Source: Phycisphaerae bacterium (GTDB lineage Bacteria > Planctomycetota > Phycisphaerae > Phycisphaerales > Phycisphaeraceae). Taken from it: 36,773 nucleotides of DNA. The position numbers and the translations under genes are program-made. Shown here one piece after another: positions 26,955-36,773 of the stretch. The notes beneath the pieces were generated by a model. It was not told the DNA's origin and did no database searches. It saw only the letters and a list, made by a program, of their open reading frames with translations. The DNA is taken from assembly GCA_002688155.1 (NCBI GenBank), contig NZCH01000114.1, positions 1-36,773 of the forward strand. The letters run 5' to 3'. How positions within the stretch are numbered: position 1 is the first letter of the stretch; each line of letters starts with the position of its first letter.

Positions 26955-27505
26955 TGCCGCGTGTGTTCATTGCCGTGAGCGCACCGGGAAACGATGCGAT
27001 CGAAGGAGTTGTCGCGACACTGTCCGGCATGGGCCGGGCGGTCAAGGCCGTCGCACTGAACAACCTGCATCTTACCCTTCGGTTCATCGGGCAGGTTGAA
27101 GAGGGCCAGATGGAGCCGATCGCATCGGCGGTGCATGATGTCGTCGCGGACCACCGGCACGCTGAATTACCGTTGATTGGACTGGGCGCTTTTCCGAATC
27201 GTCAACGCCCGCAGACAGTTTGGATCGGCATTCGAGGACAAGAGCCGCTTGCGAGTATGGTGCAGGACATCGAGCTTGCGCTGATCGACGTCGGCATCGA
27301 GCCGGATGAGCGGCCGTTTCATGCGCACCTGACGGTGGCGCGTGTGAAAACGCGCCCCCCTGCCGAGCTCTTTGAACTACTTGAACAGCGTCAACGCGCC
27401 GCATTCGGTACGCTCGACGTGTTGTCCGTTGACGTCATGCTCAGCACGCTCACGCCGCAAGGTCCGGTCTACACGGTCGCGCATCGCGCCGCACTGCGCG
27501 TGTGA
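26954..27505 (+). CDS. thpR: RNA 2',3'-cyclic phosphodiesterase (2H family)
   Basis: MPRVFIAVSAP; HLTLRFIG and HAHLTVARV (two HxTx motifs); TGATG overlap with upstream gene. Confidence 0.93.
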   Translation: MPRVFIAVSAPGNDAIEGVVATLSGMGRAVKAVALNNLHLTLRFIGQVEEGQMEPIASAVHDVVADHRHAELPLIGLGAFPNRQRPQTVWIGIRGQEPLASMVQDIELALIDVGIEPDERPFHAHLTVARVKTRPPAELFELLEQRQRAAFGTLDVLSVDVMLSTLTPQGPVYTVAHRAALRV

Positions 27506-27593
27506 ACATCCTTCTTCACGTGCGTATGAAAATATCGGTCATATAATCGATGTATATTCATTAGTCATTTCGGGTACGAATAAGAGCCGCCCC

Positions 27594-29570
27594 ATGACAT
27601 CACCGCCGGCAAGACAACGCTGTGGGTTCTGTACCGCGCTGGTGTTGTGCATGTCGGCGGTGACTGGTGCGACTTTTGCGCAGTCGCCACAGCTCCGTTG
27701 GTGGCGCGACCTTAAAGGTGACGATGCACTTGTGGTGCGCGGCTACATCGTCGACCTGGAAATGTATGGCGGGTTCGGGGGGCATAGCGCCTATAAGCGC
27801 CAACAGCGATACGAACCCAACGACCGAGCGGTGGGGCATCCGTTTCACGACCCGGCGTGGCAGCGACAATTGATTAACCGGCTGGCGAGCCTGCGGCTCA
27901 ATACGCTGGTGCTGCGTCACCCACATCCGTTTCCACTGTTTGTGGACACCAGCGAGTTCGATCCGCACGCGCGCTGGCTGTCGCCCGAACAACTCGTGCG
28001 CAAGCGTGAAGCGCTGACGGCGCTGCTCGCACTGGCTGCCGAGCAACACATTGAGGTGCTGCTGCACACGCAGAATATTGTGCTGCCACGCGCATACGCA
28101 GCCGCGAAAGGCATTCCGCCGCAGGGTCACGATAGTGCCGAGGCACGCGCGTACACTCAGTGGTGTCTCACACGGATGTTTCAGACGTATCCGCAGTTCG
28201 CGGGATTGATCACGCGTGCTGGACCGACACCTCGGGGTTGTGACGCGTTCGTCGAGCACGCTGTGATCGGCGCACTGGATCGGCTTGGTCATCAGCCGCG
28301 GCTTATGCTGGAGTCAGCCGGCCTGTCACACGACCAGGCGCGCCGCCTGTCGCGCCGGTACTCTGGGCGATGCCTCCTGCTCACGGACTGGCCGGGCCAC
28401 ATGATGACCGCGCAGGCGTTGCTGCCGGTCGTGAACGCGCAAATGCTGCCGTCGCTGCCGATCGGGTCGATCAGCGCGGCCGGCGCGGCCGCGCGCGTCA
28501 CGATGAACGCCAATCCACAATGGATCCGCGCGATGCTGACGCGAAACAGCGTCAAACATCGCGTGCAAGCACTGCTGATTGAAGCCGGCGACGCGCCTAT
28601 GCGCTGGCTGGAGGTCGCGGCACTGGCGCGCGCGGCGTATGCGCCAAGTGAACAGGCGCCCCTGGACGTGTATGAAGAGATGCTGGACGATCGGTTCGGC
28701 AGCCGGCGGTTGTCCGTGCCGCTTCTGGCGGGCATCAAGGCAGCGAGCCTCATCCAACCGACACTGCTGCAACTGGCCTACACCGATGCGCCGGAGTTTT
28801 CGATTCAAGCGGGTATGCCGCTTGTGCAAATGCTCGCGATGCCCAGCATTTCTTCTCACGACCCGCACACGCCGGTCGGTAAACCGGCCGTCTTGGCGGG
28901 GATCGATGCACGTCCGGTGGCTCCGATTATGCAATGGGCGATAGCGCAGGACCAGCAGGCCGACGAGGACACCCGCATGGCGCGCTGGATATCGCGCCGC
29001 CAGCGCCTCGGGTTCTTTCCCCGACCCATGGGCGGGCCGTATAAAACGCCGGCCGACGTCGTTGAAGAGTTACTCAACCTGCACCGACAACTGAAGTTCT
29101 GCCTACCGAGTTTGTCGGACGAGCACATTCGCGCGGTGCTGAATCAGCGGGAACTGATCGTGCTCATTCGTCTGCTGCACGCGAACAATCATCTGGCGCA
29201 GCATCTGGCACAAAAGACGCGCGCCGCAATGTACTGGGCGCGTTTCGTTCAGTCGCACGATGACAAGTACGCGAATCAGTGCGTCGTGGCCCTGGAAGCA
29301 TCGATCAAACAATGGCGTGAATACGCGCGGCATACCGAGGCCATCTATGAGCGAGGCCTGACACTGACACTGGCACTTGCACCGGGCCGGGGGCCGTGGT
29401 CAAAAGCCGACCTGGCCGGCCATTTCGTCAAACGCAAGGCACGCATGTCTGACATGCTGGTCCTGTGGCAACGCGAACTCGAGGTGGTCCGCGACGAACT
29501 GGATAAGGCGACGTCCGGCATTGCTGCCGTCCCACGTCTGCCGACTCTGCAGGACCTGGGCGTGCAATAA
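27594..29570 (+). CDS. Secreted protein of unknown function, possible TIM-barrel (glycoside-hydrolase-like)
   Basis: Signal peptide CGFCTALVLCMSAVTGATFA; WQRQLINRLASLRLNTLVLRHPHPFP...HIEVLLHTQNIVLP barrel-like segments; family not firmly recognised. Confidence 0.65.
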   Translation: MTSPPARQRCGFCTALVLCMSAVTGATFAQSPQLRWWRDLKGDDALVVRGYIVDLEMYGGFGGHSAYKRQQRYEPNDRAVGHPFHDPAWQRQLINRLASLRLNTLVLRHPHPFPLFVDTSEFDPHARWLSPEQLVRKREALTALLALAAEQHIEVLLHTQNIVLPRAYAAAKGIPPQGHDSAEARAYTQWCLTRMFQTYPQFAGLITRAGPTPRGCDAFVEHAVIGALDRLGHQPRLMLESAGLSHDQARRLSRRYSGRCLLLTDWPGHMMTAQALLPVVNAQMLPSLPIGSISAAGAAARVTMNANPQWIRAMLTRNSVKHRVQALLIEAGDAPMRWLEVAALARAAYAPSEQAPLDVYEEMLDDRFGSRRLSVPLLAGIKAASLIQPTLLQLAYTDAPEFSIQAGMPLVQMLAMPSISSHDPHTPVGKPAVLAGIDARPVAPIMQWAIAQDQQADEDTRMARWISRRQRLGFFPRPMGGPYKTPADVVEELLNLHRQLKFCLPSLSDEHIRAVLNQRELIVLIRLLHANNHLAQHLAQKTRAAMYWARFVQSHDDKYANQCVVALEASIKQWREYARHTEAIYERGLTLTLALAPGRGPWSKADLAGHFVKRKARMSDMLVLWQRELEVVRDELDKATSGIAAVPRLPTLQDLGVQ

Positions 29571-29774
29571 GCCCTCGGCGGTAGTTATCAGTCGTTGCCC
29601 GGAATCTGTGCCGTCTGTTCGTTTTATGCGGACAGAACACGACGCACGATCGCGCCGCAGACGTTCATTGCTTATCGCCATCTGCTCGGCCGTCGATAGC
29701 CGATTCATGATCGTGCGCCGCACCGTGCGCGCTCGGTCCGCGATCGCATCATACGTATTGGGGTGGACGAAAGA

Positions 29775-30830
29775 ATGGATCTGGACACAATTCTCGTGAC
29801 GGCGGTGGAGCTGGGTGCATCGGACATTCACCTGGTCGCCGGCCATCCACCGGTAGCGCGCATACACACCGTGATGGCCCCGATGGATTACCCGATCATC
29901 ACACCCGAAAGCGCCAATCGTATGCTCGCAAAGATGGCCAGCGAAACGCACATGCCGATCTTCGACAAGATCGGCGACGTGGATTTTTCATACGAAGTGC
30001 CGGGCGTGAGCCGCTTCCGTGTCAACGCGCACCGGCAACGACAATCAATCGGCATCTCACTGCGTGTGATCAAGGAAAAGATCCCGGCGTTCGAGTCGCT
30101 GAATCTGCCCGAGGTTATTCAGCGGCTGACGTATCTGCCGCGCGGACTGGTACTCGTTACCGGCGATACCGGGTCGGGCAAGTCCACGACCCTCGCATCA
30201 ATGATCAATGCGATGAATGCGCGCTACCATAAGCACATCATCACGCTCGAAGACCCCGTCGAGTACCTGTTCGAGAGCAACAAGTGCCTTCTCGAACAGC
30301 GCGAGTTGGGCGAAGACGTCCCCAGCTTTGCATCGGGGCTGCGGCACGTGTTGCGTCAGGACCCGGACATCATTCTGGTCGGCGAGATGCGTGACCTGGA
30401 GACGACGGCCGCCGCTATCACTGCGGCAGAGACCGGGCACCTGGTCTTGTCCACACTGCACACGGTCAACGCGTCACAGACAGTCGAGCGCATCATCGAC
30501 ATGTACCCCGCCGACCAGCAGAACCAGATTCGATCCATGCTGGCGAACACGCTGCAGGCGGTGGTCAGCCAGACGCTGTTCAAACGAACAGACAAAAAAG
30601 GCATGGTGCCCGCCATCGAGGTGATGCTGTGCACGCCCGCGGTGCGCAACTTGATTCGCGAGGATCGGGCGTTTGAGATTCCCAACGTGATCGACACGAA
30701 CCGCGCCCTGGGAATGGCAAGCCTGGACACGTCTATTTCGGAGTTGTATTTCAACGGCATGATCGGCCGCGAGGACGCTGTGGCGCAGGCCGTGTTCCCG
30801 GACAAGCTTGAACGTATGCTCGCGGCGTAA
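29775..30830 (+). CDS. pilT: Type IV pilus twitching motility ATPase PilT
   Basis: ASDIHLVAGHPP, GLVLVTGDTGSGKSTTLASMI, ITLEDPVEYLF, RQDPDIILVGEMRDLET; alternative start 29763. Confidence 0.95.
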   Translation: MDLDTILVTAVELGASDIHLVAGHPPVARIHTVMAPMDYPIITPESANRMLAKMASETHMPIFDKIGDVDFSYEVPGVSRFRVNAHRQRQSIGISLRVIKEKIPAFESLNLPEVIQRLTYLPRGLVLVTGDTGSGKSTTLASMINAMNARYHKHIITLEDPVEYLFESNKCLLEQRELGEDVPSFASGLRHVLRQDPDIILVGEMRDLETTAAAITAAETGHLVLSTLHTVNASQTVERIIDMYPADQQNQIRSMLANTLQAVVSQTLFKRTDKKGMVPAIEVMLCTPAVRNLIREDRAFEIPNVIDTNRALGMASLDTSISELYFNGMIGREDAVAQAVFPDKLERMLAA

Positions 30831-30911
30831 CCCGGGAAAAGTCAATTGGCGTCGGCATTGGCCGGGCGTCACGCAACCAGCGACAGCAGTGCATGCGACC
30901 GAAGGAACGTA

Positions 30912-32135
30912 ATGCCTCACTATCGTTACGAAGTCAAGACGACCGACGGCAAGTCATCCGTAGGTGTGCTGGCGGCCACCAACGCCATAGCTGCGGCGCA
31001 GACACTGCGCTCGCAGGGTCAGCGGGTCCTGAACCTCACGACCGTGGACGGCGCGGACACGTCCATCGGTGATAAACTCAAATCACTCAACCAGACCAGC
31101 GGCCCGTCGCAACGCGACATCCTCAACTTCACCACGCAACTGGCGGTGATGATCCGCGCCGGGATCTCGTTGCGCGCCGCGATCGAAGGCATCGCCGACC
31201 AGACAGAAGCCCCCAAGTTCAAGAACCTGCTGTTGCAGATCAAGCAGGACGTCGAATCGGGAAAACAGTTCAGCGAGGCGCTGGCCAAGCACCCCAAACA
31301 CTTTAACCCGCTGTATGTCAACATGGTGCGCGCGTCCGAGATGTCAGGCAGCTTTTCTCAGATGCTCGACCGGATCGCCGCATCCCTGGCGCATCAGATC
31401 GAAACGCGTAACATGGTCATCGGCGCGATGATTTACCCGGGCGTGATCGCGACCATGGCGATCAGCGTCACGATTTTCCTGCTCGTGTTCGTCCTGCCCA
31501 AATTTGCGATGGTATTTCGCGGCAAGGAGGCGGCGCTGCCCTGGCCCACAATATTCCTCATGCGGCTAAGCGCGTTCATGGTCGACTGGTGGTGGGCGGT
31601 CTCATTCGCATTGGTGGGCCTGGTCGTTGCAATCGTGTTTTTTGTCAAGACCGAGGCAGGCGGCACCTGGTTTGACAAGGTGAAGTTGAAGGTGCCGATT
31701 TTCAGCAAGATGTTCCGCGCGCTGTATATCAGCCGGTCCATGCACACGATGGGCGAGCTGGTTAATGCCGGCGTGCCCATGCTCGATACGATCAGAATCA
31801 CCGGTGATATCAGCGGCAACCGGCTGTTTCTACGACTGTGGGTGGCGGTCCACAATTCCGTCAAACAGGGCAAGAAGATCGCCCAGCCGCTGCAACGCAC
31901 CGTCCTGCTGCCCAAGTCCGTCGTACAGATGATTTCCGCGGGCGAAGAGTCCGGTAAACTAGGCGAAGTACTCGATGAAATCAGCGATTTCTACTCCAAG
32001 CAGTTGCGAGAAACCATCAAAACCGTCACCTCCATGATCGAGCCGATCATGATCATCCTCATGGGTTCGATCGTCGGCTTCATCGCCATGGCAATCATCT
32101 TGCCGATCTTCAAGCTGTCGACACTGGTGAAGTGA
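30912..32135 (+). CDS. Type II secretion/type IV pilus inner-membrane platform protein (PilC/GspF)
   Basis: FTTQLAVMIRAGISLRAAIEGIA, GEESGKLGEVLDEISDFY, IEPIMIILMGSIVGFIAMAIILPIF. Confidence 0.95.
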   Translation: MPHYRYEVKTTDGKSSVGVLAATNAIAAAQTLRSQGQRVLNLTTVDGADTSIGDKLKSLNQTSGPSQRDILNFTTQLAVMIRAGISLRAAIEGIADQTEAPKFKNLLLQIKQDVESGKQFSEALAKHPKHFNPLYVNMVRASEMSGSFSQMLDRIAASLAHQIETRNMVIGAMIYPGVIATMAISVTIFLLVFVLPKFAMVFRGKEAALPWPTIFLMRLSAFMVDWWWAVSFALVGLVVAIVFFVKTEAGGTWFDKVKLKVPIFSKMFRALYISRSMHTMGELVNAGVPMLDTIRITGDISGNRLFLRLWVAVHNSVKQGKKIAQPLQRTVLLPKSVVQMISAGEESGKLGEVLDEISDFYSKQLRETIKTVTSMIEPIMIILMGSIVGFIAMAIILPIFKLSTLVK

Positions 32136-32321
32136 TTGCCTATTTTTGATTGAAGTCCCGCATGGACGATCGGTGGGGTTATACCGGTCAGTGAATCCTT
32201 GCGGCGTGTGTCGTCACCTATTTCAAAGAAAAGACCTGCTTGTCTCGGCGTTTGAATTGTACGATTACCGACGTGAACAAAATGCGCCGTTGTGGCGCCG
32301 GTAAATCAAACGGTCAGCGGC

Positions 32322-32909
32322 ATGACTCAGGTACTTAACCGACAACAGGCAATCGGTATTCGCCGGCAGCCGCCCCGACGCAGCGCCGGTTTCACGTTGA
32401 TTGAAGCCGCGCTCGCGACCGTGATCGTCGGCACGGGCGTGCTGGCGATCGTCTCGGCGCAGCAGGCATACCACAAGAAAAACGACTGGGCACAGCGTAG
32501 CAGCACGGGATTTTTCCTGGCCAATGAACTGCGCGAGATGACGCTGACCCTGCCGATGCACGACCCGCTGACGGCGGACACGACCGTCGGTCCGGAAGCC
32601 AACGAGGACAACGTCCGGGCATTCGACGACCTGGATGACTTCGCGGGTGTCGTCAGCGCCGGCAAGGGCGCGGGCCTGGCGTTCAACCCGCCGATCAACG
32701 CGCTGCGACAGCAGATCGACGGGTTGCCCGGATGGCAACAGACCATCGTGGTCGACAGCATCCTTGCGGACAACATCAGCTCAACGTTTGTCCAGCCGCT
32801 GGGCACGACCGATCTGATGCGCGCCACCGTCACCGTGACTTACCAGCCACCCGGTGCACAACAAGCAACCACAATCAACAGACTCGTGTGGGTGGTCGGC
32901 GAGGACTGA
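32322..32909 (+). CDS. Prepilin-type minor pilin (PilV/GspI-like)
   Basis: RSAGFTLIEAALATVIVGTGVLAIVSAQQAY prepilin N-methylation motif and helix. Confidence 0.88.
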   Translation: MTQVLNRQQAIGIRRQPPRRSAGFTLIEAALATVIVGTGVLAIVSAQQAYHKKNDWAQRSSTGFFLANELREMTLTLPMHDPLTADTTVGPEANEDNVRAFDDLDDFAGVVSAGKGAGLAFNPPINALRQQIDGLPGWQQTIVVDSILADNISSTFVQPLGTTDLMRATVTVTYQPPGAQQATTINRLVWVVGED

Positions 32910-32980: not shown

Positions 32981-35212
32981 ATGCGGACATCGCCCCAACA
33001 CCTTAAACCCGAAGCTCAACGGCCGACACCGAGCGCTAAAAACCATGGCGCCGTGTCGGTCATGGCGATGATGTACTTGGTGATCTTTTCATCGCTGGCC
33101 ACCGCGATGGCGATCGTCGCGCAGGGCAACCTTGCGACGGCGGACTCGCACCAGCGTATCAACCGTGCACTGTCCGGCGCTGAGACCGGCATGCGGTTCC
33201 TTATCTACCGGATCAATCAGATCACGCCGGTCGTAACGACCACAGACGGGTTGATCGACGAGACCAACGCGCCGGACCTCTGGGAAGAAACGCGCGACGC
33301 ACTGCTCGCGTCGATGGAACTCGAGCCACACAATCTCGCTGAGCCGGTGGTTATCAACGGCATATTACAACTCGGGCCGATCGCGCTGGGTCCCAACGAC
33401 CCGCAGTTCACCGCGACGCTCACACCGCATCCACTTGCAGGCGAGGACTATGACAGCGGCTACTACCAGCGGCCTCCATTTAGCAATTTGGCCCCGCCCG
33501 TTTCCGCGGCCGAGCCGCTCGGCACCACCTGGGTGCGCGTGCGCGTGATCAGCAGTGACGGCGCGGGCGGCAACGAGATCACGCGCTCGATTCAGATGGA
33601 CTTTCATATAGACAAGAAGATTCGCTTCGCGATCCTGTCGCGCAGCCGCGTGATGATCGGCCAGAATGTGCTCATCGACGGACCCATCGGCAGCCGATTC
33701 ACCGAAACGAACCTGACCAACGGGCATCCGATTCAAATGGTCAGCGACTTTGTCGGGCTCGATGCGGCCCTCAATGCCGCGCTCGATGCGTTTGTCACGG
33801 ACGTGGTGAACCTCGACCAGAATGGTGATAACCGGCTCAACCTCGCTGACGCAAATGAAATCGACGGCATCATCAATCCCGAGCAGTTTGACACTGACGG
33901 TGACGGGTACATCGACGGTTACGACTTTTTCCTGGACCATTATGACGCAAACGCGGACGGTCAGCTCACAAGCATCGAGCTGGACACCAGCGGCAATATT
34001 CACACCGCCCAGCTATTTGAGTTGATTGACACATTCGGCGACTCGAGCCGGGCCGGGTACAACGACGGCGTGATCGACGAGAAGGATGACTACGCAAAGA
34101 TTCACGGCCATGTCAAACTACTCGCGGACCTGCAGGGCTGGCTTGACGGCGCCGCGGGCGGAACGTACCAAGACTACTTGCAGGGGTCGATCAACTCCGA
34201 TGACGGTGAGAATCCGTTGACGTTTCAGACATCCGATTCGTCGGTCCCCGGCCTGGAGGCCTCCGACTTCGATACGTCGTCGTTCGCAGCAACCGCCAGC
34301 GGTGACTTCGTCACACAGGCAGCGGCTAACGCGGCGCTGTACGACTCGGACGATCCCACGTCGCCTCAGTTGCTGGGCAACACGTCGCTCGAGGCGGTGC
34401 CGTTCGGGTCGATGCACCCGTATGACTACTACGACCGACCGATTTACGAAAACATGACGTTCACCAACGTCACCATCCCGCGTGGCAACAACGGGCTGTT
34501 CATCAACTGTCGGTTCATCGGTGTGACATTCATCGACACAACCGAGGACACCGCCCATGACAACTTCAACTTCGCGGGCACACAGGAATCCGACGGGTCG
34601 CAGAAGTACCCCGGCCTGGCAGCAATCGTCGACGCCAATCTGCTCAGCGACACGAAACCGGTCGCGAACAACCTCCGTTTTCATAGTTGCACGTTTGAGG
34701 GTGCTGTTGTCAGCGGCGTGCCTTCCACGTTCGCGCAGGCGCGCAACAAACTGAACTTCACCGGCACGACGCGCTGGGAGATCAACGAATCGACCAACTT
34801 GTCGAACGACGAAAAGGAGATGTACGAGCGCAGCACGCTGCTGTCGCCGCACTTTTCGGTTGAGATGGGCACGTTCACCGACCCGACGGACGCGGCCGAG
34901 ACGCTCGAACTCAACGGGGCAATCGTGGTGGGGCTGCTGGACGCGCGCGGACAGATCAAGATCACGGGAACCATCCTGTCGACCTTTGCGCCGACCAGCA
35001 ACGTGCCTCCGGTGCTGGGCCAGACCAGCTCGCAGTTCAACACGACGCTGGGCTACTTCCCATCGACGGACGGCGACCTCGAGGCGGAGTTGCCCGCCAA
35101 TGGTGTGGGCGTGATCCACGTGACCTACGACCCGATCATCCCGCTGCCCGATGGCATTCTCGGACCGATCGAGGTCGTGCCCGTCTACGCGACATATTTT
35201 GAAGGTGGCTGA
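32981..35212 (+). CDS. Large PilX-like pilus assembly protein with EF-hand/dockerin-like calcium-binding loops
   Basis: N-terminal AVSVMAMMYLVIFSSLATAMAIVAQGNLATADSHQRINRALSGAETGMRFLIY; loops DQNGDNRLNLAD, DTDGDGYIDGYD, DANADGQLTSIE. Confidence 0.75.
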   Translation: MRTSPQHLKPEAQRPTPSAKNHGAVSVMAMMYLVIFSSLATAMAIVAQGNLATADSHQRINRALSGAETGMRFLIYRINQITPVVTTTDGLIDETNAPDLWEETRDALLASMELEPHNLAEPVVINGILQLGPIALGPNDPQFTATLTPHPLAGEDYDSGYYQRPPFSNLAPPVSAAEPLGTTWVRVRVISSDGAGGNEITRSIQMDFHIDKKIRFAILSRSRVMIGQNVLIDGPIGSRFTETNLTNGHPIQMVSDFVGLDAALNAALDAFVTDVVNLDQNGDNRLNLADANEIDGIINPEQFDTDGDGYIDGYDFFLDHYDANADGQLTSIELDTSGNIHTAQLFELIDTFGDSSRAGYNDGVIDEKDDYAKIHGHVKLLADLQGWLDGAAGGTYQDYLQGSINSDDGENPLTFQTSDSSVPGLEASDFDTSSFAATASGDFVTQAAANAALYDSDDPTSPQLLGNTSLEAVPFGSMHPYDYYDRPIYENMTFTNVTIPRGNNGLFINCRFIGVTFIDTTEDTAHDNFNFAGTQESDGSQKYPGLAAIVDANLLSDTKPVANNLRFHSCTFEGAVVSGVPSTFAQARNKLNFTGTTRWEINESTNLSNDEKEMYERSTLLSPHFSVEMGTFTDPTDAAETLELNGAIVVGLLDARGQIKITGTILSTFAPTSNVPPVLGQTSSQFNTTLGYFPSTDGDLEAELPANGVGVIHVTYDPIIPLPDGILGPIEVVPVYATYFEGG

Positions 35213-35838
35213 TGCAGGATCGAACGCGACACAAAGACAGTGATCGACTGCGACGCACGTACCGCCGGCGCGGCGTGAGTCTTGTCGAATTGATGGCGGC
35301 GCTGGTGATCAGCGCTCTATTGCTCACGGCGACGATGGTCGCAACGGACGCGAGTTTCAAGGCCTATGCCATTGCCACAGAAGAGGCGAGCGCGCAGATC
35401 TCGGGCCGAATGGTGATGACGCGGATGCTCACGCTCGTGCGCACAAGCACCGCGCACGGGCCGCTGCTGCCCGACGCGACCGTCGAACCGCCAGCAACGC
35501 TAATCGGCAACACGATCACCAGCCCATACATCGAGCTGATTGATCAGGACGGCAACCTCGTACGCGTCGAATATCGTACGAACGACCTGGAACTGTGGTC
35601 CCTGTTCACGCCTGCGGACGGCGGGGCACAGCAGGAGCAGCCGATCATCGGCGGCGTCACCGCCGCGGTGTTTACACTCGAACGTCGGTTGACAGACGAC
35701 AATATCTTCGTCCTCGACCGCGCCACATTCGACCTGACTGTGCAGCCGTCGATCGACGCAACGCTTCCTGTAGAAAGCGAGCAGGTCACGTCTGTCCGAC
35801 TCATCGCATCCACTATGCCGCGCCGCCTCGAACAGTAA
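35212..35838 (+). CDS. Prepilin-type minor pilin (PilW/GspJ-like)
   Basis: RRRGVSLVELMAALVISALLLTATMVATDA prepilin motif; ATG overlaps upstream TGA. Confidence 0.87.
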   Translation: MQDRTRHKDSDRLRRTYRRRGVSLVELMAALVISALLLTATMVATDASFKAYAIATEEASAQISGRMVMTRMLTLVRTSTAHGPLLPDATVEPPATLIGNTITSPYIELIDQDGNLVRVEYRTNDLELWSLFTPADGGAQQEQPIIGGVTAAVFTLERRLTDDNIFVLDRATFDLTVQPSIDATLPVESEQVTSVRLIASTMPRRLEQ

Positions 35839-36054: not shown

Positions 36055-36773
36055 ATGCATAACACGAAACCGTTCCTCTTTATGATCACTGCCGGGTTGA
36101 TCCTCGCATCTTCTGCCTCGGCACAAACCATCGACCCGGCCATTATTGAAATGGCGGTGTTCGGTATTGACAAAAACTCCGGCACCATGGCGCGGTACGA
36201 CTTTGACACCGGCCAGACTAAATCCATCGGCACGCTGCGCGATGCAGGCAACAACCCGATGACCGGCGTCAACGCGTCGGCGTACATCCCCGGATTTCAG
36301 AACATCTTTGCATTCTGGACCAACCCGTCGGACGCGCTTAGCTATCTCGTGTATGTCAATAGCGAAACTGCTGACGCGACGGTCGTCGGCCAGAGCCTGG
36401 GCGCCGGTGAGTTTTCCGGTGCGACCTCGGCGCTCGTGCCTGTCGAAGGCAGTACGACCGGCGAAACCAAATGGACGGTCTTCGCGCTGCAGCACGCCGA
36501 GGCGGAAGAGGATGACACCATCCCCTTCGACATTATCGATGACATCCTCGTGCCCAGTAAACCGTACTACGCTAAGGTCACAGTTCTCGGGGCGGCGATC
36601 AGTTACGGTGGATACTACAACATGCCCGTCACCACGAAGTTTCAGATCGGCAGTGTGTCGTACACGCCGTTTGGATCATTCGATAAGGCCGTTAGCGGCA
36701 ACGTGAATGACAATCATAATCCGCGCGAGTACGTGTTTCCCAATCAATACGCAGCCGGAACAGCCGTCACAAC
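36055..36773 (+). CDS. Secreted protein, truncated by the window end
   Basis: Open frame from ATG 36055 to the last base, MHNTKPFLFMITAGLILASSASAQTIDPAIIEMAVFGIDKNSGTMARYDFDTGQ...; clear signal peptide; not in the supplied ORF track because no stop lies in the window. Confidence 0.85.
   Translation, partial: MHNTKPFLFMITAGLILASSASAQTIDPAIIEMAVFGIDKNSGTMARYDFDTGQTKSIGTLRDAGNNPMTGVNASAYIPGFQNIFAFWTNPSDALSYLVYVNSETADATVVGQSLGAGEFSGATSALVPVEGSTTGETKWTVFALQHAEAEEDDTIPFDIIDDILVPSKPYYAKVTVLGAAISYGGYYNMPVTTKFQIGSVSYTPFGSFDKAVSGNVNDNHNPREYVFPNQYAAGTAVT

Follow-up and report, generated by a model that had tools for sequence, protein, structure and literature searches.

Calcium at the tips of type IV filaments has precedent, since GspK/XcpX (3CI0, 5VTM), the tip pseudopilin of type II secretion, binds 2-3 Ca2+ with a dissociation constant of about 26 µM (PMC6211770), and pilus tips built with PilY1 depend on calcium, the calcium sites of this protein controlling pilus function (PMC8833165). 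Here we describe a 743-residue minor pilin of the GspK/PilX/ComZ class, encoded in a type IV pilus operon on a 36,773-nucleotide stretch of DNA from a Phycisphaerae bacterium (GCA_002688155.1, NZCH01000114.1, positions 1 to 36,773 of the forward strand; this whole stretch is referred to below as the window). Its head carries a block of four EF-hand-type, calcium-loop-like sites, and we consider it probable, though by no means certain, that this block is a structural Ca2+-binding module of a pilus-tip pilin, needed for folding of the head and for its resistance to force.

Each of the closest described systems shares part of this architecture. ComZ of Thermus thermophilus (6qvi; PMC6561018) likewise lies beside other minor pilins, has a large head for which a position at the pilus tip has been proposed, and carries a beta-solenoid between the penultimate and the last pilin strand, the topology that our model predicts for the 743-residue protein. 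However, no calcium or other metal is mentioned in the ComZ paper, nor is an EF-hand block described there, and neither a sequence match nor an alignment of our protein to ComZ was obtained. ComZ binds DNA through two lysines. GspK would resemble our protein as a calcium-binding tip protein, and its partners GspI and GspJ are the counterparts of the two neighbouring pilins, but the GspK insert is alpha-helical, lies between strands 3 and 4 and forms no beta-solenoid, and no EF-hand block has been described in GspK. PilX of type IVa pili shares the hydrophobic RG/xxxxL N-terminus lacking Glu5, the AETG motif and the gene order pilV-X-W, whereas the PilX_N profile (PF14341) matches only one of 48 orthologs of our protein (E 0.0097). 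Typical PilX proteins are small and are not known to have a solenoid or an EF-hand block. The C-terminal domain of PilY1 has an EF-hand-like calcium loop (DxDxDNxxD) in a pilus tip protein, but it is a beta-propeller of another family, not a pilin, with a single loop between two strands, and its profile (PF05567) matches neither the window protein nor the 48 orthologs. We found no account in the literature that joins planctomycetes, PilX and EF-hands, and the relevant papers on EF-hands and minor pilins concern PilY1; the parts are thus known, while for their combination, a ComZ/GspK-like tip pilin with a multi-EF-hand insert, we found no description.

The EF-hand block

The gene and the calcium-loop-like sites within it are as follows.

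32981..35212, forward strand: whole gene of the GspK/PilX/ComZ-like minor pilin, 743 residues (orthologs in relatives; AlphaFold; Foldseek match to ComZ 6qvi)
33752..34114, forward strand: EF-hand block, residues 258-378, four calcium-loop-like sites (alignment, AlphaFold, Foldseek, homologs lacking the block)
33815..33859, forward strand: EF1, DQNGDNRLNLAD, starting D279 x N281 x D283 N R L (alignment; predicted extended loop of about 15 residues)
33890..33925, forward strand: EF2, DTDGDGYIDGYD, residues 304-315 (best-conserved loop, fully canonical)
33944..33979, forward strand: EF3, DANADGQLTSIE, residues 322-333 (canonical E12, moderate conservation)
34028..34087, forward strand: EF4, D-TFGDSSRAGYN-DGVIDEKD, that is D350, an 8-residue insertion, then D362 G x I D366 x x D369 (alignment)

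Since searches of Pfam, NCBIfam and PDB sequences with the single 743-residue sequence gave no confident domain, we relied on orthologs and on the predicted fold; a profile search of the PDB returned nothing at E 0.1. Orthologs are present in 52 of 61 related genomes, and 48 of them, from across Phycisphaerales, were aligned. A sequence-only reading of the window had proposed three canonical calcium loops and a possible fourth in this protein, and these are indeed found in frame, at 33815, 33890, 33944 and 34028-34087. The strict 12-residue calcium-loop pattern occurs 3 times in the protein against a mean of 0.003 (maximum 1) in 20,000 shuffles of it, and no other open frame of 60 codons or more in the window contains a strict loop. 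Under the canonical rule (D1, D/N3, D5, G6, a hydrophobic residue at 8, D/E12), EF2 and EF3 conform in full, EF1 in all but residue 12, and EF4 in an expanded form.

The block is conserved throughout the 48 orthologs. Ligand positions, a list to which E293 was added post hoc once the alignment had been seen, have a mean majority-residue conservation of 85%, compared with 49% in the rest of the block (permutation test, p < 5e-5). EF2 stands out, with D304 in 48/48, D308 in 46/48 (N in the other two) and D315 in 47/48, and a number of distant relatives with a degenerate EF1 still retain it. EF1 keeps D1, D/N3 and D5, and because E293, 14 residues past D279, is acidic in 96% of orthologs, we infer that EF1 is an extended loop of about 15 residues with E293 as its likely outgoing ligand. 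EF4 is uninterrupted in one ortholog (L030, DVNGDGVIDSLD); in others (L035, L040-L043, L047-L049; families f2, f3 and f5) the EF4 insertion itself holds a further canonical loop (e.g. DRNGDGAIDEAD), giving five loops.

Modelled alone by AlphaFold, the block reaches a predicted local distance difference test (pLDDT) score of 91, and the PDB fold matches listed for it are nearly all EF-hand proteins (calcineurin B, calmodulin, troponin C, centrin, lanmodulin). In the full model, two-residue strands fall at 286-287, 310-311, 329-330 and 364-365, and some flanking helices are very short or shared. The EF-hand_5 profile is matched by 9 of the 48 orthologs (best E 5.4e-7). Conservation, profile matches among orthologs and structure prediction therefore support the assignment of these sites to EF-hand-type calcium loops, and the four-loop module would bind Ca2+.

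The loop starts are spaced by 25, 18 and 28 residues, leaving linkers of 13, 6 and 16. These fall short of the roughly 25 residues found in typical calcium-responsive EF-hand proteins and come closer to the 12-13 in lanmodulin of Hansschlegelia (8fnr/8dq2; PMC10232371), which also has four EF loops and is among the fold matches of both the whole-protein and the block models. Lanmodulin is a free protein with Pro2 in its loops, whereas the loops of the 743-residue protein have no proline at position 2; lanthanide binding was considered in view of this match and, given the missing Pro2, is not claimed.

Predicted fold and N-terminus

The fold of the whole protein was predicted with confidence (pLDDT 91; predicted template-modelling score, pTM, 0.85). 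A long N-terminal helix is followed by four strands, a beta-rich region at about 218-726 and a final strand at 731-742, so that the solenoid precedes the strand that completes the pilin sheet.

33044..33232, forward strand: N-terminal pilin helix, residues 22-84 (invariant G23 at -1, AETG motif at 67-70; alignment and model)
33362..33613, forward strand: pilin beta-strands 1-4, residues 128-211 (secondary structure of the model)
33632..33751, forward strand: first beta-solenoid rungs, about residues 218-257, motif ILSRSRVMIGQNVLIDGPIGSRF (model and alignment)
34115..35158, forward strand: remaining beta-solenoid, about residues 379-726, with C510 and C570 (model and conservation)
35171..35206, forward strand: last pilin beta-strand, residues 731-742 (model)

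With the whole model, Foldseek returned two Thermus thermophilus ComZ chains as the only significant PDB matches, the best being 6qvi (E 1.1e-5, probability 0.97, overall template-modelling (TM) score only 0.18), and no ComZ chain appears among the PDB sequence matches up to E 10. The match is thus one of topology in the model, with a low overall TM score and undetectable sequence similarity. In the same model the EF-hand block is a further insertion, within a loop of the solenoid and not directly in the pilin domain. Ten of the 48 orthologs match Pentapeptide_3. The only cysteines of the protein, C510 (34508-34510; 48/48) and C570 (34688-34690; 46/48), both lie in the solenoid and may form a disulphide.

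The 743-residue length requires the ATG at 32981, with the frame open further upstream; this start is supported by its position directly before the conserved N-terminus RRG/AAxxLAMMFLVIF. The consensus of the 48-member alignment, RRG/AAxxLAMMFLVIFGSLAAAMAI...AAAETG, has G23 at -1 in 48/48 orthologs and leucine at mature position 5 in 44/48 (methionine or isoleucine in the others), so that Glu5 is absent. By its sequence this N-terminus is of the PilX/GspK kind; profile support, though weak, runs in the same direction, the GspK model NF037980 matching 5 of the 48 orthologs (best E 5e-5) in addition to the single PilX_N match, while the window protein itself matches neither profile. The PilX-type hydrophobic N-terminus of the earlier reading is accordingly borne out by G23, the lack of Glu5 and the AETG motif, but it had been misplaced: the hydrophobic segment is residues 24-47 (AVSVMAMMYLVIFSSLATAMAIVA), and ETGMRFLIY is residues 68-76, later on the same long helix and outside that segment. 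The label PilX-like can likewise be kept, but the closest solved structure of the whole is ComZ, a GspK-like pilin with an inserted beta-solenoid.

Distribution of the block

Three named ortholog records are from Planctomycetota, two of these from Phycisphaeraceae. Homologs outside the order were collected by a search of the class Phycisphaerae and grouped by family. Two of these families (f9, f11) have the full-length version, with EF2 kept in most members and EF1 degenerate. The block is absent from homologs of about 540-690 residues in other Phycisphaerae families, which have some 50-120 residues in its place; the motif ILSRSRVMIGQNVLIDGPIGSRF also precedes the linker in these shorter proteins. 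A midpoint-rooted tree, built on the regions common to both kinds, separates the homologs that have the block from those that lack it, in clades of 58 and 11 sequences (support 0.986 and 1.0), a split that a single loss would explain, or a single gain at a site where the loop was long beforehand.

Proposed role and alternatives

In the model that we favour, the protein would be a tip-capping minor pilin of a retractile type IV pilus. The pilin domain would anchor it alongside the PilV- and PilW-like pilins, and the large beta-solenoid head would project at the pilus end, one long loop of the head bearing the compact four-loop module that would bind Ca2+. Short beta-strands would probably pair EF1 with EF2 and EF3 with EF4. 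The module would be unfolded in the calcium-poor cytoplasm and become loaded and folded in the calcium-rich periplasm or outside the cell, where it would hold the head firmly against solenoid and pilin domain. We propose that, as a consequence of this bracing, assembly of the priming complex would have to await export and the tip would resist pulling. The tip would thus probably be held together by calcium, and its ligand would be a surface or DNA.

Several observations weigh against this proposal. EF1 does not conserve position 12, and the 8-residue insertion of EF4 is present in most orthologs. The Pfam EF motif scores weakly on the single sequence, at E 0.05, below the cut-off; of the profiles suggested earlier, EF-hand, dockerin and PilX, the last two have no match in the window protein, in the case of dockerin at E up to 1, and all three match some orthologs only. 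Superposition of the block on solved EF-hand proteins is poor (TM about 0.3, best E 0.019), so its packing is not calmodulin-like. The shorter homologs manage without the block, which is therefore not essential to the head in general. Finally, the tip position is suggested by analogy with GspK and ComZ and by fold and size.

A calcium switch, in which the block changes shape with external calcium and toggles adhesion, DNA binding or retraction in the fashion of PilY1, is possible but doubtful. Calcium sites of PilY1 do govern pilus function elsewhere (PMC8833165), and the weaker conservation of EF3 and EF4 leaves room for weaker, regulatory sites. Neither the 61 relatives nor a set of 149 genomes from the phylum gave a match to PilY1 (PF05567); were PilY1 lacking, the block could supply its calcium function, but the positive control of these searches gave no signal and absence is not established. 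EF1 and EF2 have almost invariant ligands, and with linkers of 13, 6 and 16 residues and short helices there is hardly room for the paired helices that act as a lever in sensors of the calmodulin type. We favour a structural module over a sensor because the linkers are very short, the ligands near-invariant and the block embedded between solenoid strands; the first two of these features agree no less well with a structural function than with the calcium-responsive tip or priming complex suggested by the sequence-only reading. We hold it to be rather unlikely that the Phycisphaerae, seemingly without PilY1, arrived through a single acquisition of an EF module by a ComZ-like tip pilin at a calcium-gated tip adhesin or receptor, independent of the PilY1 solution. 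That the tip is a ComZ-like receptor binding DNA for uptake, its DNA site shaped or modulated by the block, seems less likely still: the best fold match, ComZ, binds DNA (PMC6561018) and ComEC-type competence proteins occur in 54 of the 61 relatives, but ComEC is widespread, ComZ escapes detection by sequence, and the very acidic block argues against direct DNA contact.

The sequence-only reading had also called the block dockerin-like, and its loop motifs do resemble dockerin loops, which could hold a cohesin-like partner at the tip. Dockerin_1 is matched by 3 of the 48 orthologs (best E 1.3e-4), but the window protein gives no hit to it up to E 1, and four loops with their uneven start spacings differ from the two F-hand repeats of about 22 residues of type I dockerins (PF00404). 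We therefore rejected dockerin on profile and on loop number and spacing, and consider a docking module very improbable. Hardly credible is the view that the region is an acidic linker rich in repeats, that it has no metal function and that its DxDxDG motifs stem from composition: low single-sequence profile scores would agree with it, but the shuffle test, the conservation of ligand columns and a confident fold with EF-type short strands speak against it.

An EF-hand module within a beta-solenoid pilin would be a third, separate use of calcium by type IV filament tips, and the ComZ-type solenoid tip, structurally known from Thermus, would extend to planctomycetes. The defined 120-residue block would allow one to ask whether tip calcium is structural glue or a switch, natural homologs with and without it in related pilus operons being a ready comparison.

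The pilus operon and neighbouring genes

The pilin gene lies in a type IV pilus operon with the following genes.

29763..30830, forward strand: PilT retraction ATPase (TIGR01420, E 1.8e-134, above the curated cut-off)
30846..32135, forward strand: PilC/GspF inner-membrane platform protein (T2SSF, E 5.4e-57)
32292..32909, forward strand: PilV/GspI-like minor pilin (N_methyl, E 2e-4; TIGR02523 PilV, E 5e-6, below the cut-off)
35212..35838, forward strand: PilW/GspJ-like minor pilin (N_methyl, E 3.9e-6; T2SSJ, E 0.055)

Both neighbours of the 743-residue protein match prepilin N-methylation motifs, which confirms its previously noted position between two minor pilins. The order pilT-pilC-pilV-like-pilX-like-pilW-like is kept in all seven neighbourhoods compared, taken from across the order plus f11, in which the five genes are joined by an interposed second pilV-pilX pair. 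None of the nine relatives that lack the protein has a close PilC ortholog; what they have are paralogs of 31-39% identity. Nearly all relatives with the protein have PilC at 60-75%, apart from G001 and G021, both of them incomplete genomes. From this co-occurrence we conclude that the protein is part of this pilus system rather than of the other T2SS (type II secretion system)-like systems of these genomes.

Upstream of pilT, a 732-residue frame (27372-29570) is probably a shorter gene, with a DinB_2-like match at E 2.1e-4, below the cut-off, and otherwise no family. Downstream of the pilin operon, a secreted-looking protein (36055-36773) runs off the contig end; it has no Pfam match, and the seven neighbourhoods compared contain no homolog of it. 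In other Phycisphaerae families, two or three tandem PilX-like genes occur in the operon (L070, L072, L075, L079, L080, L085, L103), and in one genome (G102, with L103) a second pilV-pilX pair stands ahead of the main pair.
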